A stretch of 64,000 nt of DNA from an uncultured Monoglobus sp. (GTDB lineage Bacteria; Bacillota; Clostridia; Monoglobales; Monoglobaceae), in NCBI GenBank assembly GCA_947624305.1, contig CANQKC010000008.1:1-64000 (forward strand). The letters run 5' to 3'. The translations under genes were made by a program, and so were the position numbers. This document shows, piece by piece, positions 53,725 through 59,159 of this stretch (its first letter is position 1; each line of letters opens with the position of its first letter). The notes under the pieces were generated by a model. It was given only the letters and a program-made list of their open reading frames with translations, had not been told where the DNA came from and made no database searches.

Positions 53725-53814
53725 TCCGCAATCTCCTCCAGTATAGTATTATATATGCTTATTATTGATAAGAACGGTGTTTTCTATTCCACTTTGTATT
53801 TTAAAACAAATATC

Positions 53815-53843
53815 TTGATTAATCATGCAATATATGATATAAT
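53815..53843 (+). promoter_or_regulatory. Promoter of the radical SAM operon
   Basis: TTGATT (53815-53820), a 17-bp spacer and a perfect TATAAT (53838-53843), 69 bp before the maturase ATG. Confidence 0.7.
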
Positions 53844-53912
53844 GTAAAACAGAAAGAAAAATATTTGAATATATTCTATATATTTATATAAAAAACATTT
53901 GGAAGTGATCAC

Positions 53913-55250
53913 ATGGAAGAAGAAAAGGAATTAGAATTGTCGTTGGATAAAGTTTATGTTTTTCCAAAAATTGATTTTGTAGAATATAATAATTACTATC
54001 TTGCCATACTGCCTGAAACAGCTAAATGGATAGTATTAAAAACGCCGGAACAAGTTGCTATACTAAAAATGTTAATTAACGGGACATGCATCGATGATGT
54101 AATCAAAAAACACGTTGGCTCTCAAGATGACCTAATCAGCGTTCTCACACAAATAGAAGCAAAACAACTTGAATGCACAAAAACCAAATCTGTATTTTCT
54201 AATACAAGATTGCATCTCCATATCACTAATAAATGTAATTTGCGTTGTCCACATTGTTATATGATGTCAGGGACAGCATATAATAACGAGCTGACAACAG
54301 AAGAAATTAAGGACCTCTGTAAAAACTTTCAACGTCACGGCGGTACAGATGTGTCACTTACAGGCGGTGAACCGACAGTGCGTAAAGATTTTTTTGACAT
54401 TGCAGAATATATTTCTTCATTGCAAATGAAAATATCTGTTTTTACTAACGGATATTTTTGGAACGAAGAAAATGTGAAACGTATTTCAGAGCTTAATATC
54501 GAAGGAGTACAAATAAGCATTGATGGATATAATGAAAATTCCAATGCTATTATAAGGGGAAGCGGTATTTTTGAACGCGCATTAAAGTCAATTGATTTGT
54601 TTATTAAACATCATATATATGTAAAAGTTGCCGTTACAGCGCCATATGAAATTATTAAGAAGCATCAATCGGAATACATTAAGTTTTCAAGATCATTAAT
54701 TGAAAAATACGGTGAAGATGCCATTGAATTCAACTATTCCTATTTCTTTATGCCGGGCAGAGATCTTTCACATAATAAGATAGAGTCCATAAAAGATGAA
54801 TATTATAATATTGTTGATAATGTTGTAACATCTATTTACGGAAATATTGAGGAGGACTCGTTTGTTTCAAATTTAACTGATTGCATATATGACAGCTGCG
54901 GTTATGGAGGTTTGAATGTTATGGCGAATGGTGATTTTTATTTTTGTGATAGAATTGCCGACGTCAATAAATCCGGCAACATACGAGATATGTCATTTAA
55001 TGATATTTTTAGTATGATGAAGGCCGCAGAAGAAGCGGGAAGAATTGATAATTTTAAACCTTGTGGAACTTGTGAACTTAAATATATATGCGGTGGTGGT
55101 TGTCGTGCCGAATATTTCAGAGATTTCACAAAGATTACAAATATTAAAACAATTAATTTTGATAATATTCCCCCGAGAATATGTGATAAAAAGAAAAAGG
55201 AAAAACTCTATAGATTAATGATAAATACAAATGAAAGGTTTTTTTGTTAA
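53913..55250 (+). CDS. Radical SAM/SPASM peptide maturase with PqqD-like N-terminus
   Basis: A 445-residue enzyme. Residues about 8-90 form a PqqD-like recognition region (AILPETAKWIVLKTPEQVAI). The radical SAM [4Fe-4S] motif is C108-x3-C112-x2-C115 in NKCNLRCPHCY, followed by SLTGGEPTVRKDFFDIAEYI. A SPASM domain with two extra clusters follows: C324 and C329, FYFCDRI (about 345), CGTCELKYICGGGCRAEYF (about 380-398) and a last Cys near 430. Such enzymes install carbon-sulfur, carbon-carbon or carbon-oxygen bonds in precursor peptides. The codons are AT-rich unlike its neighbours. GGAAGTGA precedes the ATG. The likely substrates are the peptides at 58742-58962. Confidence 0.9.
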   Translation: MEEEKELELSLDKVYVFPKIDFVEYNNYYLAILPETAKWIVLKTPEQVAILKMLINGTCIDDVIKKHVGSQDDLISVLTQIEAKQLECTKTKSVFSNTRLHLHITNKCNLRCPHCYMMSGTAYNNELTTEEIKDLCKNFQRHGGTDVSLTGGEPTVRKDFFDIAEYISSLQMKISVFTNGYFWNEENVKRISELNIEGVQISIDGYNENSNAIIRGSGIFERALKSIDLFIKHHIYVKVAVTAPYEIIKKHQSEYIKFSRSLIEKYGEDAIEFNYSYFFMPGRDLSHNKIESIKDEYYNIVDNVVTSIYGNIEEDSFVSNLTDCIYDSCGYGGLNVMANGDFYFCDRIADVNKSGNIRDMSFNDIFSMMKAAEEAGRIDNFKPCGTCELKYICGGGCRAEYFRDFTKITNIKTINFDNIPPRICDKKKKEKLYRLMINTNERFFC

Positions 55251-55252
55251 GT

Positions 55253-57691
55253 ATGAGTGATTTAATAATTACAATCAATATAACAGCATCAAAGCGAAAC
55301 GGCTTCATGATCCTTAAAACTTTCTATACAAAAAAAGTTGATTTAAACAAGTCAGGAAAATTTAAAGGCGGAAGCATTTCACCGGCTGATATATATAACA
55401 GCATTCCGATAAATAACTGTAATCAGGAATATATTGGCAAACTTTTCAAAGAAACATGCTATAGGGTATCATCAAACGCATATTATATTACCCTTCCTAA
55501 ACTTAACTATATTATTAATGAGTTAAGCAGCTACAGAATGTTATTTTTGGACAATCAGGATAAATCTCTGGTTTTGGTAAATAATTGCCTCTCACAGAGA
55601 CCCATAAGAAAACCAAAATATGCTTATTTAATTAATGAGAATATAATTAATTGGTATTCTGATTGCTCAGTATATCTTGAAAGCGCCAAATCTTTGCCAG
55701 CGCAAGTAAAGGTCATAATTCCCATTCCTCATTTACTGTATTCCAGTGATGAGCAAGTATACTCGTTATATTTTAAATATAACGAGGAAAAAATCCCGTT
55801 CCTTGATAAAAGACTCTCGGTTAGAACAGAAGATATAATTTATCTTAGGAACCATAATTTTGAAAGTAAGGTCAGCGAAATACTCCTTAATGACAGCTTT
55901 ACTAAACTGGCCGGATGCCGTTTTATGTATTCAGGACATAAAAATAAAAAAGATTTAATCAGCGACTTGTCATCAAAGCATATTATAGTTGATGATGATG
56001 AAAATACCATTATCCCTAACATAAGAATAACCAAAAGCGAATCAGGCTGGTTTGATATAGACTTGTCATATAATATTGACGACAAGATATTTGATCTGGC
56101 ATCAAAAATTCAGCTTTTTTCAGAAAACAACGTAATAGACTCAAATAATAAAAAGATAATGTTGCCCGATTCACTGATTCAGGCAAAAAAATATCTTTCA
56201 ATAGTAGAAAACAAATTCAGAATAAACCAAACCCATATTTTTCAGTTGCTTCGGATCGTTTATGACAGCGATTCTAAGATTACTGATTTCTTTTCATATA
56301 GAAATGTAAAAACGAATTTGCCTGATTCAATTATCGAAACAGCATTTCCATATCAATTGGAAGGAATAAAATGGTTAAAATTTCTTTTTTTAAACCATTT
56401 TGGCGGATGCCTGGCTGACGATATGGGTTTAGGAAAAACATTTCAGGTCATTTCTTTTCTTGAGGATGCTGATATTAAGAGTAGCATTGGAAAAATACTT
56501 ATTATTGTTCCCAAATCACTGCTTACCAACTGGCAAAAAGAATTCACCAAATTCAAATCCAGCTATTGTGTCGGTATATATCATGGAGACAAAAGAACAA
56601 ATTTTGATTTTAAAAACACAGATGTTATCATTACAACATATAATACAGCCTATATTGATTTAAAAAAAATAAACGAAATAAAATATTCAATTTTGATTTA
56701 TGATGAAATTCAGACCGTAAAAAATTATAAAAGCATTACCTCTGAGGCAATGAAACAAATTGTTGCTAATATGAAAATCGGGTTATCCGGAACGCCCATG
56801 GAAAACAGCATTTCCGAACTGTGGAACATTATGGATATATTAAATCCAAATATATTCTATAATCACTCTGATTTTATGCGAAGATATAATGGAAAGAACT
56901 TTGATGAACTTAAAAACATACTCAATCTTTTTATTCTTCGCAGAATGAAAAAAGATGTTCTCAAAGAACTGCCACCAAAATGTGAACAAATTATTTATTG
57001 CGATATGGATCAAAAACAAAAAACTCTTTATACCGGTATCAATCTTGCTGTAAAAGAAGCAATTTTGAATATGAAAGCATTCGTGGCTCCGGCAGTTCTC
57101 AAGGGTTTAACACTGTTGCGTGAATGTTGCTGTCATCCATTGTTGCTTAATGATGAAACAAATGTAAAAAAGATCGACGAATCCTGCAAATTTGAAGCCC
57201 TTAATATCCTTGTGGATAATTTAGTTGAGTCAGGACATAAAATATTAATTTTTAGCAACTATACATCAATGCTAAGACTGATTGAAAACGAATTAAAAAA
57301 ATCGAAAAAATACAAAGATATTATATATTATCTTGACGGTAAAACTAAAAATAGAATTGAACTTGTAAATCAATTTGAAACCGCTGCTAAAGGAATATTT
57401 CTTATCAGTATCAAAGCCGGAGGTGTCGGACTGAATCTTGTATCAGCTCAAGATGTGATTATTTATGACCCTTGGTGGAATCCATTTGTTGAACAGCAAG
57501 CAATTGACAGAGCCTATCGTATCGGACAAAATAATCCTGTAACCGTATATAAACTTGTGGTGGCAAACACAATTGAAGAAAAAATCGTTGAGATGCAGAA
57601 TGAAAAAAAACAAGATTTTGAAGAATTGATTAACGGAGTTTCTGAAAATAAGAATTTTGACATTAAAGATATTCTTAAACTCCTGCAATGA
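55253..57691 (+). CDS. SNF2-family DEAD/DEAH helicase in a peptide-modification operon
   Basis: An 812-residue protein starting 2 nt after the maturase stop. The N-terminal half (about 1-370) contains the pattern ESGWFDIDLSYN (about 263-274) seen upstream of many bacterial SNF2 ATPases. The helicase core shows Walker A in LADDMGLGKTFQVI (about 386-399), IYDEIQTVKNYKS (about 481-493), LSGTPMENSISELW and the second lobe GVGLNLVSAQDVIIYDP, then QQAIDRAYRIGQ (motif VI). All core motifs are intact, so it is probably an active ATPase. No nuclease domain is visible. Such helicases are not standard partners of SPASM enzymes. Confidence 0.88.
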   Translation: MSDLIITINITASKRNGFMILKTFYTKKVDLNKSGKFKGGSISPADIYNSIPINNCNQEYIGKLFKETCYRVSSNAYYITLPKLNYIINELSSYRMLFLDNQDKSLVLVNNCLSQRPIRKPKYAYLINENIINWYSDCSVYLESAKSLPAQVKVIIPIPHLLYSSDEQVYSLYFKYNEEKIPFLDKRLSVRTEDIIYLRNHNFESKVSEILLNDSFTKLAGCRFMYSGHKNKKDLISDLSSKHIIVDDDENTIIPNIRITKSESGWFDIDLSYNIDDKIFDLASKIQLFSENNVIDSNNKKIMLPDSLIQAKKYLSIVENKFRINQTHIFQLLRIVYDSDSKITDFFSYRNVKTNLPDSIIETAFPYQLEGIKWLKFLFLNHFGGCLADDMGLGKTFQVISFLEDADIKSSIGKILIIVPKSLLTNWQKEFTKFKSSYCVGIYHGDKRTNFDFKNTDVIITTYNTAYIDLKKINEIKYSILIYDEIQTVKNYKSITSEAMKQIVANMKIGLSGTPMENSISELWNIMDILNPNIFYNHSDFMRRYNGKNFDELKNILNLFILRRMKKDVLKELPPKCEQIIYCDMDQKQKTLYTGINLAVKEAILNMKAFVAPAVLKGLTLLRECCCHPLLLNDETNVKKIDESCKFEALNILVDNLVESGHKILIFSNYTSMLRLIENELKKSKKYKDIIYYLDGKTKNRIELVNQFETAAKGIFLISIKAGGVGLNLVSAQDVIIYDPWWNPFVEQQAIDRAYRIGQNNPVTVYKLVVANTIEEKIVEMQNEKKQDFEELINGVSENKNFDIKDILKLLQ

Positions 57692-57699
57692 GGTGTATA

Positions 57700-58284
57700 A
57701 TGATTAAATTTTCAGATGTATTAATGTATGTACGTTACTATAAAAAAGTAATATATCTTAACTGCTTAAAAAATTTTAAACAACTTGACTATATAGGAAG
57801 AATGGAGGACAGTAATCCCCTATTCAGAGGATATGAAGGATGCTATCCTATCAAAAAACTGTTAAAAATGCTTAATATCACATCGCAAGACAGAGTTATT
57901 GACATTGGTTGTGGAAAAGGGTTGTTTCTTTATTATGCTTCTATGTTTAATTTTAACACAATAGACGGTATAGAGCGTTCTTATAGTTTAACCAAGGTTG
58001 CCAAACATAATGCTAAATTACTTAAAGATGAACGAATTCATATATATCATAAAGATGCAAGAGAATTTGATAATTATAAAAATTATAATTATTTCTTCAT
58101 TAACAATCCGTTTTCGGCTGAAATTATGGAGAATGTTATGCTTAAGATCATAGACAGTTATGCTCTAAAAAAAAGAAAAATAATTATTTTATATCAATTT
58201 CCATTTAATATTGAAACATTTACAAAAAATAATTTTAAAATAATGTATGATAAATTTCCAAATTGTATATTGACATTTGGTTAG
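57700..58284 (+). CDS. Class I SAM-dependent methyltransferase (small, DOT1-like)
   Basis: A 194-residue methyltransferase with the SAM-binding motif VIDIGCGKGLFLYYAS (about 65-80), an acidic residue near IDGIERS and YFFINNPFSAEIME (about 128-141), an NPF motif resembling the NPPF/NPPY active sites of amide or adenine methylases. The ATG at 57700 has AGGTG upstream. An alternative ATG at 57688 overlaps the helicase stop (ATGA) but lacks a binding site. It completes the operon and could methylate the peptide product or a nucleic acid. Confidence 0.8.
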   Translation: MIKFSDVLMYVRYYKKVIYLNCLKNFKQLDYIGRMEDSNPLFRGYEGCYPIKKLLKMLNITSQDRVIDIGCGKGLFLYYASMFNFNTIDGIERSYSLTKVAKHNAKLLKDERIHIYHKDAREFDNYKNYNYFFINNPFSAEIMENVMLKIIDSYALKKRKIIILYQFPFNIETFTKNNFKIMYDKFPNCILTFG

Positions 58285-58307
58285 AACTATAATATAATTT
58301 TTGTAAT

Positions 58308-58568
58308 TTAATTATATATTTTAAACATTGGCAAAACGCAAAAATTAAAGTTGTTATTTAGATAATCAAGAAGCTCGACAACCATAGAAAAACCTTCAAT
58401 TTTCTTGACGATTAAGGCACAGATCATGGTATGTTTTGAAAAGCTCTTGCGCCCCGTTTTTGTGTATTCCGGCACAGAGGAAAGATCAAAAAAATTTATA
58501 TAATTTAATGATGGGGAGAGAGGTAAACATATGAATGTCTTAGATAATTTCTTGGCGATATATAACAA
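58308..58568 (-). pseudogene. N-terminal fragment of an IS transposase
   Basis: The minus-strand frame encodes about 85 residues with KTGRKSFSKHTMICALIVKK followed by IEGFSMVVELLDYLNNNFNF. This matches the N-terminal helical domain (G-R-K-x-Y-S then A-x-x-x-K) of transposases related to IS1182/IS4-type elements. The catalytic part is missing and the frame runs out at 58308. It lies between the operon and the micropeptides, evidence of mobile-DNA activity at the island. Confidence 0.65.
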
Positions 58569-58713
58569 TCGCCCTCTTTGTGGATAGTTTTCTGGTTGGT
58601 CTAATTATATCATAAAAGGCTGATTGTTTCTACATAAATATGGAGTGGTAAGAAAAATAACTAACATGAGGAAACACCCGTAAAAACGTACTTTTCGGAG
58701 TTTTGCTCATGGC

Positions 58714-58719
58714 TATAAT
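58714..58719 (+). promoter_or_regulatory. Possible -10 box for the micropeptide pair
   Basis: TATAAT at 58714-58719 is perfect but the -35 (CTTTTC at 58691-58696, 17-bp spacer) is poor, so an activator may be needed. The leader would be only about 20 nt, ending in the AGAGGTGAT binding site at 58730. Confidence 0.4.
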
Positions 58720-58741
58720 ATAGTAAAAAAGAGGTGATATC

Positions 58742-58834
58742 GTGAAAATTAAATGGAAAGTTAAAGAAAAGCCAAAGAAAACAGTTAATTCTTTCGGTTG
58801 CTTTAAAAGTTGTGAAACAATGAGAAATAGCTAA
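58742..58834 (+). CDS. Micropeptide 1, candidate RiPP precursor (30 aa)
   Basis: A GTG start preceded by AGAGGTGAT opens a 30-codon frame: MKIKWKVKEKPKKTVNSF, then GCFKSCETMRNS. It has a Lys-rich N-terminal half with KWKV and KPKK, and a C-terminal CFKSC (C-x3-C at C20 and C24). It resembles micropeptide 2 at both ends. It is too short for ordinary gene finding. It fits a leader plus small core that a SPASM maturase could crosslink through Cys or aromatic residues. The processing site and product are inferred. Confidence 0.6.
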   Translation: MKIKWKVKEKPKKTVNSFGCFKSCETMRNS

Positions 58835-58851
58835 TAAAGGAGTGATTTTAT

Positions 58852-58962
58852 ATGAAGAATATTATTCTTAAGTGGAAAGTGGCAAAAAAACCTAATAAAG
58901 TTATACAGAAAACTGCTAGTCACTATACATTCAGGACATGTACTGAAAAATGCGGCAGTTAA
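58852..58962 (+). CDS. Micropeptide 2, candidate RiPP precursor (36 aa)
   Basis: ATG preceded by AAAGGAGTGATTTTAT. The frame reads MKNIILKWKVAKKPNKVIQK, then TASHYTFRTCTEKCGS. The N-terminal LKWKVAKKPNK matches IKWKVKEKPKK of micropeptide 1, and CTEKC (C30 and C34) matches its C-x3-C. The 17-nt gap and the shared terminator show the two are transcribed together. Two related precursors behind one promoter are common in RiPP and two-peptide bacteriocin systems. Confidence 0.6.
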   Translation: MKNIILKWKVAKKPNKVIQKTASHYTFRTCTEKCGS

Positions 58963-59036
58963 ACTAACACAATATCGTTCAAAGTTTTCTATAAGCTTAA
59001 TATGCAATCTTTGTGAGATATTGCTCTAAGATTAAT

Positions 59037-59083
59037 AAAGTAAAACAGCTGTGTCAATGTAAGACACACAGCTGTTTTACTTT
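59037..59083 (+). terminator. 18-bp-stem terminator after the micropeptides
   Basis: AAAGTAAAACAGCTGTGT (59037-59054) pairs perfectly with ACACAGCTGTTTTACTTT (59066-59083) across an 11-nt loop. It closes the micropeptide unit and the island. Confidence 0.9.
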
Positions 59084-59159
59084 TACAATAATATGCTATT
59101 AAATATAAAGTCATCATATTTAAAGCAATCAGAAATAATTATTGTTAACAATTCCGCAC

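Follow-up and report, generated by a model that had tools for sequence, protein, structure and literature searches.

Paired micropeptides beside a radical SAM/SPASM maturase and an SNF2-family ATPase in an acquired island of an uncultured Monoglobus sp.: probable RiPP precursors

Two adjacent small open reading frames (ORFs) in a 64,000-nucleotide stretch of DNA from an uncultured Monoglobus sp. (contig CANQKC010000008.1, positions 1 to 64,000; hereafter, the window) raise the question of whether they encode real peptides and, if so, what those peptides do. Peptide A (58742 to 58834, forward strand) starts at a GTG and comprises 30 amino acids, MKIKWKVKEKPKKTVNSFGCFKSCETMRNS, with the core GCFKSC; peptide B (58852 to 58962, forward strand) starts at an ATG and comprises 36 amino acids, MKNIILKWKVAKKPNKVIQKTASHYTFRTCTEKCGS, with the core YTFRTC and the tail CTEKC. 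An earlier note on this DNA had proposed both ORFs, each with a good ribosome-binding site, and both were found as described, preceded by AAAGAGGTGATATC (A) and AAAGGAGTGATTTTAT (B); the common motif (I/L)KWKV(K/A)xKP(K/N)K is likewise seen in both. The note had also described the pair as twins that end in C-x3-C. The two peptides are indeed related, as paralogous types A and B rather than as two copies of one peptide. Both C-x3-C motifs exist (CFKSC in A, CTEKC in B), but they do not occupy equivalent positions in an alignment of 22 precursors, and CFKSC stands six residues before the C-terminus of A rather than at it. CFKSC of A aligns with TFRTC of B, which gives [C/T/S]-[F/Y]-x-x-C as the core common to both and sets CTEKC apart as an additional tail of B.

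Comparison with homologues addresses the first part of the question. Between the peptides of the window and those of Ruminococcus flavefaciens (start codons excluded), 9, 10, and 38 differences fall at codon positions 1, 2, and 3, respectively (38 of 57 at the third position; p = 2.8e-7), with pS of 0.98 and pN of 0.14. Forty-nine of 64 residues are identical between them, a value reached in 0 of 5,000 random placements of the same substitutions. Precursors from a Lachnospiraceae genome and from a further Bacillota genome (G482) differ at 1, 1, and 16 sites (16 of 18 at the third position). The claim that spacer DNA would not keep this order of motifs by chance is therefore borne out, as homologues hold the reading frame and substitutions are mostly at third positions; loss of the frame, with substitutions spread evenly over codon positions, had been named as the refuting outcome, and when this was checked, the claim was not refuted. 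Sixteen related maturases form one clade, supported in a tree against the outgroups used, and 15 of them have a motif-matching ORF alongside, on the maturase strand and either within its operon or immediately 5′ of it. The same motif pattern elsewhere gave about 12 unrelated matches in 490 kb, compared to 7 to 13 in shuffled copies. Unrelated motif ORFs thus occur at the shuffled rate, and the motif ORFs at 15 of 16 clade loci indicate a pairing beyond chance. At the level of sequence evolution, A and B are confirmed as real coding genes; searches of both peptides against NCBIfam and Pfam gave no usable match.

Of the identities first proposed for these peptides, that of RiPP precursors is strongly supported, both because the island also encodes a cognate radical SAM/SPASM maturase and because leader and core are kept in three phyla. 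The maturase, SNF2 ATPase, methyltransferase, and island are context absent from the earlier note. The maturase (53913 to 55250, forward strand; 445 amino acids; Pfam Radical_SAM and SPASM) has the CX3CX2C motif at C108/C112/C115 and SPASM residues C329, G340, C345, C384, C387, C393, C397, and C424, all invariant in 14 sequences, which together make up the signature of a SPASM radical SAM peptide maturase, CX3CX2C plus the seven-cysteine SPASM pattern CX9-15GX4C-CX2CX5CX3C-C. In a structural model (pLDDT 86), three strands and three helices precede the barrel with high confidence, and fold comparison placed SkfB, CteB, and SuiB closest. In the comparison with the whole model, CteB and TigE aligned from residues 18 and 8, respectively. 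As modeled, the N-terminus appears to have the layout of an RRE and is here called RRE-like. The best NCBIfam match was to StsB (NF045574) at 134 bits, below the cut-off of 625, and the enzyme is therefore a relative of StsB rather than a member of its family.

Across 15 loci in Bacillota, Spirochaetota, and Bacteroidota, one to five micropeptides lie beside a homologous maturase, and the 22 precursors in these loci share a leader and a core in alignment. The leader is strand-like, with I/L-x-W/Y-x-V in the family (for the most part I/L-x-W-x-V among Bacillota and Spirochaetota and I-S/T-Y-x-V/I among Bacteroidota), and the core lies near the C-terminus. Two general marks of RiPP systems are present: a short ribosomal precursor with a conserved leader and a separate or variable core (22 aligned), and a cognate modifying enzyme nearby (a radical SAM/SPASM enzyme in 15 loci). 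The core lacks any single motif of the characterized sacti- or ranthipeptides. All four loci with a methyltransferase encode both precursor types, A (..FGCFxxC..) and B (..[YF][TS]Fx[NT]C.. plus one further Cys), and one of these, in Spirochaetales, encodes three peptides of type A and two of type B. A single peptide with the nearly fixed ending MYCF[KR][SN]CxxN[QK]N is encoded in five further loci, next to maturases only ~32 to 40% identical to that of the window. We consider A and B to be RiPP precursors with a probability of about 0.85. Other small ORFs occur in the clade as well. A second one (MKSVKNIKVNQDKVQKGGTILIAAG...) directly follows a Bacteroidota maturase (L018:1761-1892) and is also found in L015, shortened by a stop. 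In L012 (7218-11067), a clade maturase is accompanied by a second radical SAM protein and by a small ORF of another sort, rich in Cys (MTANKDNAKKMFGTNTSCSRTIGGRCVGNCRKTGTR); no motif ORF lies beside this maturase, which may have another precursor type instead.

The whole cassette occupies an AT-rich island (53798 to 59141). Two congeneric genomes, which encode the flanking phosphomutase-like protein at 98% identity, match the window up to ~53797 or 53724 and again from 59142, with the island missing, and GC content is ~0.30 inside the island compared to 0.52 to 0.64 outside. Sister genomes without the insert, together with the drop in GC, indicate a clean 5.3-kb acquisition; within the island there was no recognized integrase and no gene beyond the cassette. 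A promoter-like TTGATT-17-TATAAT lies 5′ of the maturase (53815 to 53843, forward strand; 10 of 12 consensus matches, and a consensus match only), and a perfect sigma-70-type promoter, TTGACA-17-TATAAT, lies at the end of the methyltransferase gene (58270 to 58298, forward strand; 12 of 12). The same boxes stand ~40 bp before the first peptide in R. flavefaciens. In the window, alignment with locus L008 identified an extra ~415 bp between promoter and peptide A (58300 to 58715), missing in R. flavefaciens and bordered by copies of CTATAATATA; its largest ORF has no Pfam match, and the genome has no second full copy of the segment. This segment is possibly a small mobile element or transposon relic that could weaken expression, and because it parts the promoter from the peptides, their expression in the window is uncertain. 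A terminator-like hairpin (59037 to 59083, forward strand; inverted repeat with 18-bp perfect arms) closes the operon.

Relatives of the cassette are scattered. A protein search of plasmids yielded one near relative of the maturase, encoded by Treponema saccharophilum pTS1 (53% identity), and the gene order of maturase, helicase/SNF2, and methyltransferase is identical in Treponema, R. flavefaciens, and the window. Behind these genes on the complete plasmid, two precursor genes (L007:13438-13722) stand unannotated, encoding MVLTWNVAENELQNIKCFGCFNCCC... and MKTLTLTWNV...GGCYYTFKNCNECEKTVHKNS. With a two-row maturase alignment as the query, a scan across 84,980 genomes recovered R. flavefaciens Y1, an uncultured Spirochaetales, Heliophilum, Pelotomaculum, Lachnospiraceae, and several Bacteroidota and Spirochaetaceae; whole-genome sampling added one further Bacillota genome (G482, above), and IMG/VR one contig with the cassette (L060). 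Single-sequence maturase scans of genome contigs and viral contigs gave no match, nor did the methyltransferase alignment or the exact core pattern against viral contigs. No other cassette member was found in the family of the window or in class, order, and further samples, and the cassette was present in 1 of 391 genomes of the class, a patchy, island-borne distribution.

What the peptides do may be linked to the genes that follow the maturase. The SNF2-family ATPase (55253 to 57691, forward strand; Pfam SNF2-rel_dom 206 bits, Helicase_C 76 bits) has an ORF that opens at TTG 55244, with ATG 55253 the likelier start judging by homologues, and its motifs DDMGLGKT, DEIQ, and RAYRIGQ are intact. 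A fold search recovered no more than the ATPase core common to such proteins; the N-terminal region of the model was poor. The class I SAM-dependent methyltransferase (57700 to 58284, forward strand; Pfam RrnaAD/MTS/Methyltransf_31) has an ORF that opens at ATG 57688, with ATG 57700 likelier. In three loci (L019 and L060 by Pfam, L059 by sequence likeness), an M42 aminopeptidase gene 5′ of the precursor takes the place of the methyltransferase. No dedicated exporter was recognized in the cassette ORF maps by inspection, which was not exhaustive; the Treponema plasmid has MATE and MFS genes farther from the cassette.

In RiPP biosynthesis, the leader strand binds an RRE and a SPASM enzyme cross-links the core. 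In the window, the IKWKV or LKWKV strand of the precursors would dock on the RRE-like domain of the maturase, which would then cross-link the C-terminal core around its invariant [C/T/S]-[F/Y]-x-x-C. The cross-links would, somewhat more probably than not, be Cys thioethers of the sacti- or ranthipeptide kind. The methyltransferase may tailor either the peptide or DNA, and the M42 aminopeptidase may trim the leader in sister systems.

Neighboring genes offer a suggestive association of the cassette with defense. In five loci, cassette neighbors scored at least 100 bits against PADLOC models: MkoA-like, type IV restriction, and PDC-M62A/B (192/191 bits) in R. flavefaciens; PDC-S15 (159 bits) in T. 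saccharophilum; PDC-S01 (208 bits) in Spirochaetales; RdrB (102 bits) in L060; and TmtA (487 bits) in a Bacteroidaceae locus. The best PADLOC score among ten control proteins from the window was 72 bits, a comparison to be read with the lenient candidate families of PADLOC, a small control set (n = 10), and no formal enrichment in mind. The neighbors of the window cassette itself are not defense genes. Proximity to defense systems has been reported for RiPP clusters in general (PMC11118758, PMC12715929). On the IMG/VR contig (L060:4689-12153), M42 peptidase, precursor, maturase, and SNF2 genes adjoin the RdrB-like deaminase gene.

The lack of a recognized exporter, the conserved core, the SNF2 gene fixed beside the maturase in part of the family, and the defense neighbors all point toward action inside the cell with the SNF2 protein. 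We therefore commit to a reading in which A and B form an intracellular two-component RiPP, for which defense is the likeliest role, though at below even odds. We tentatively propose that the product cooperates there with the SNF2 DNA motor and that protection from foreign DNA, such as that of phages, is the most plausible purpose. More speculatively still, the cassette could be a RiPP-armed defense against phages or mobile elements, with the modified micropeptide (or pair) as sensor, cofactor, or effector of the SNF2 translocase.

An alternative hypothesis is that the radical SAM enzyme and peptides form a RiPP system, and that SNF2 and methyltransferase are independent defense cargo alongside. 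Maturase loci of the Bacteroidota branch lack SNF2, which is thus not needed for maturation, and such SNF2 proteins commonly occur without the maturase; relatives in viral contigs had neither maturase nor peptides. Against this, nine loci spread over several branches of the maturase tree have SNF2 directly after the maturase and in the same orientation, gene order is held between phyla, and the island carries nothing else. We put independent cargo at well short of even odds. A secreted bacteriocin with two components, like thuricin CD, in which A and B would be cross-linked, exported, and kill neighbors jointly, is unlikely. Thuricin CD is a sactipeptide made of two components (PMC12093266), the paralogous precursors A and B persist as a pair, and the maturase fold is nearest to sactisynthases, but no dedicated exporter, leader peptidase, or immunity gene was recognized in the island or in other cassettes, single-precursor loci have a near-fixed core unlike that of diversifying bacteriocins, and the DNA motor would have no obvious part. 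The suggestion in the earlier note of cationic bacteriocins or signals likewise found no support, as the cassettes have no recognized dedicated exporter, C39 peptidase, immunity gene, or sensor.

We regard as improbable a redox- or cofactor-like peptide used by an intracellular enzyme in the manner of PQQ or mycofactocin. The conserved core, the SPASM maturase with its RRE-like domain, and the absence of a dedicated exporter would suit it, and the M42 peptidase of three loci could release the core; however, no partner oxidoreductase is common to the loci, and the patchy spread within the class fits accessory conflict genes better than metabolism. That A and B are chance ORFs in spacer DNA, as their lengths below the usual gene-calling limits might suggest, is refuted by codon-position statistics, homologues, and motif-ORF counts.

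An intracellular two-component RiPP remains our preferred reading. The precursor family was overlooked by gene callers, spans three phyla, and connects RiPP chemistry with an SNF2 DNA motor. Should that link prove functional, a DNA-acting machine would include a modified micropeptide, and a role for RiPPs in bacterial immunity would be testable with one five-gene cassette.

Among known systems, SkfB and CteB, the best structural matches, resemble the window maturase as radical SAM/SPASM enzymes with an RRE-like domain acting on short Cys-containing precursors. The window system differs from them in sequence (~20 to 28% identity), in its SNF2 and methyltransferase partners, in having no recognized exporter, and in its leader and core. 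Streptosactin (GggB/StsB family) has short, unnested Cys(i)-(i+3) links (PMC8172795) that would fit the short spacing of the window core; in contrast to streptosactin, no quorum-sensing regulators were seen here. Two different precursors are also kept together in thuricin CD (PMC12093266), which relies on two radical SAM enzymes; the window has one maturase, which would act on both of its precursors. DISARM DrmD, Zorya ZorD, and DpdE are SNF2-family ATPases of accessory islands that gave profile and fold matches to the window SNF2; identity with DISARM, Zorya, or Dpd was rejected, as the partner genes are absent from the island and SNF2 scores fall far under NCBIfam cut-offs. Kaur et al. (2020; PMC7159879) described conflict systems in which a peptide effector is the predicted modification target of radical SAM/SPASM enzymes. 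Those modules occur with vWA-MoxR/VMAP-type NTPases and metallopeptidases, none of which is in the island, and not with SNF2. Our literature search found no description of a system combining a radical SAM enzyme, SNF2, and a micropeptide. Both the precursor family and its fixed SNF2 partnership look new; the chemistry appears to be of a known kind.
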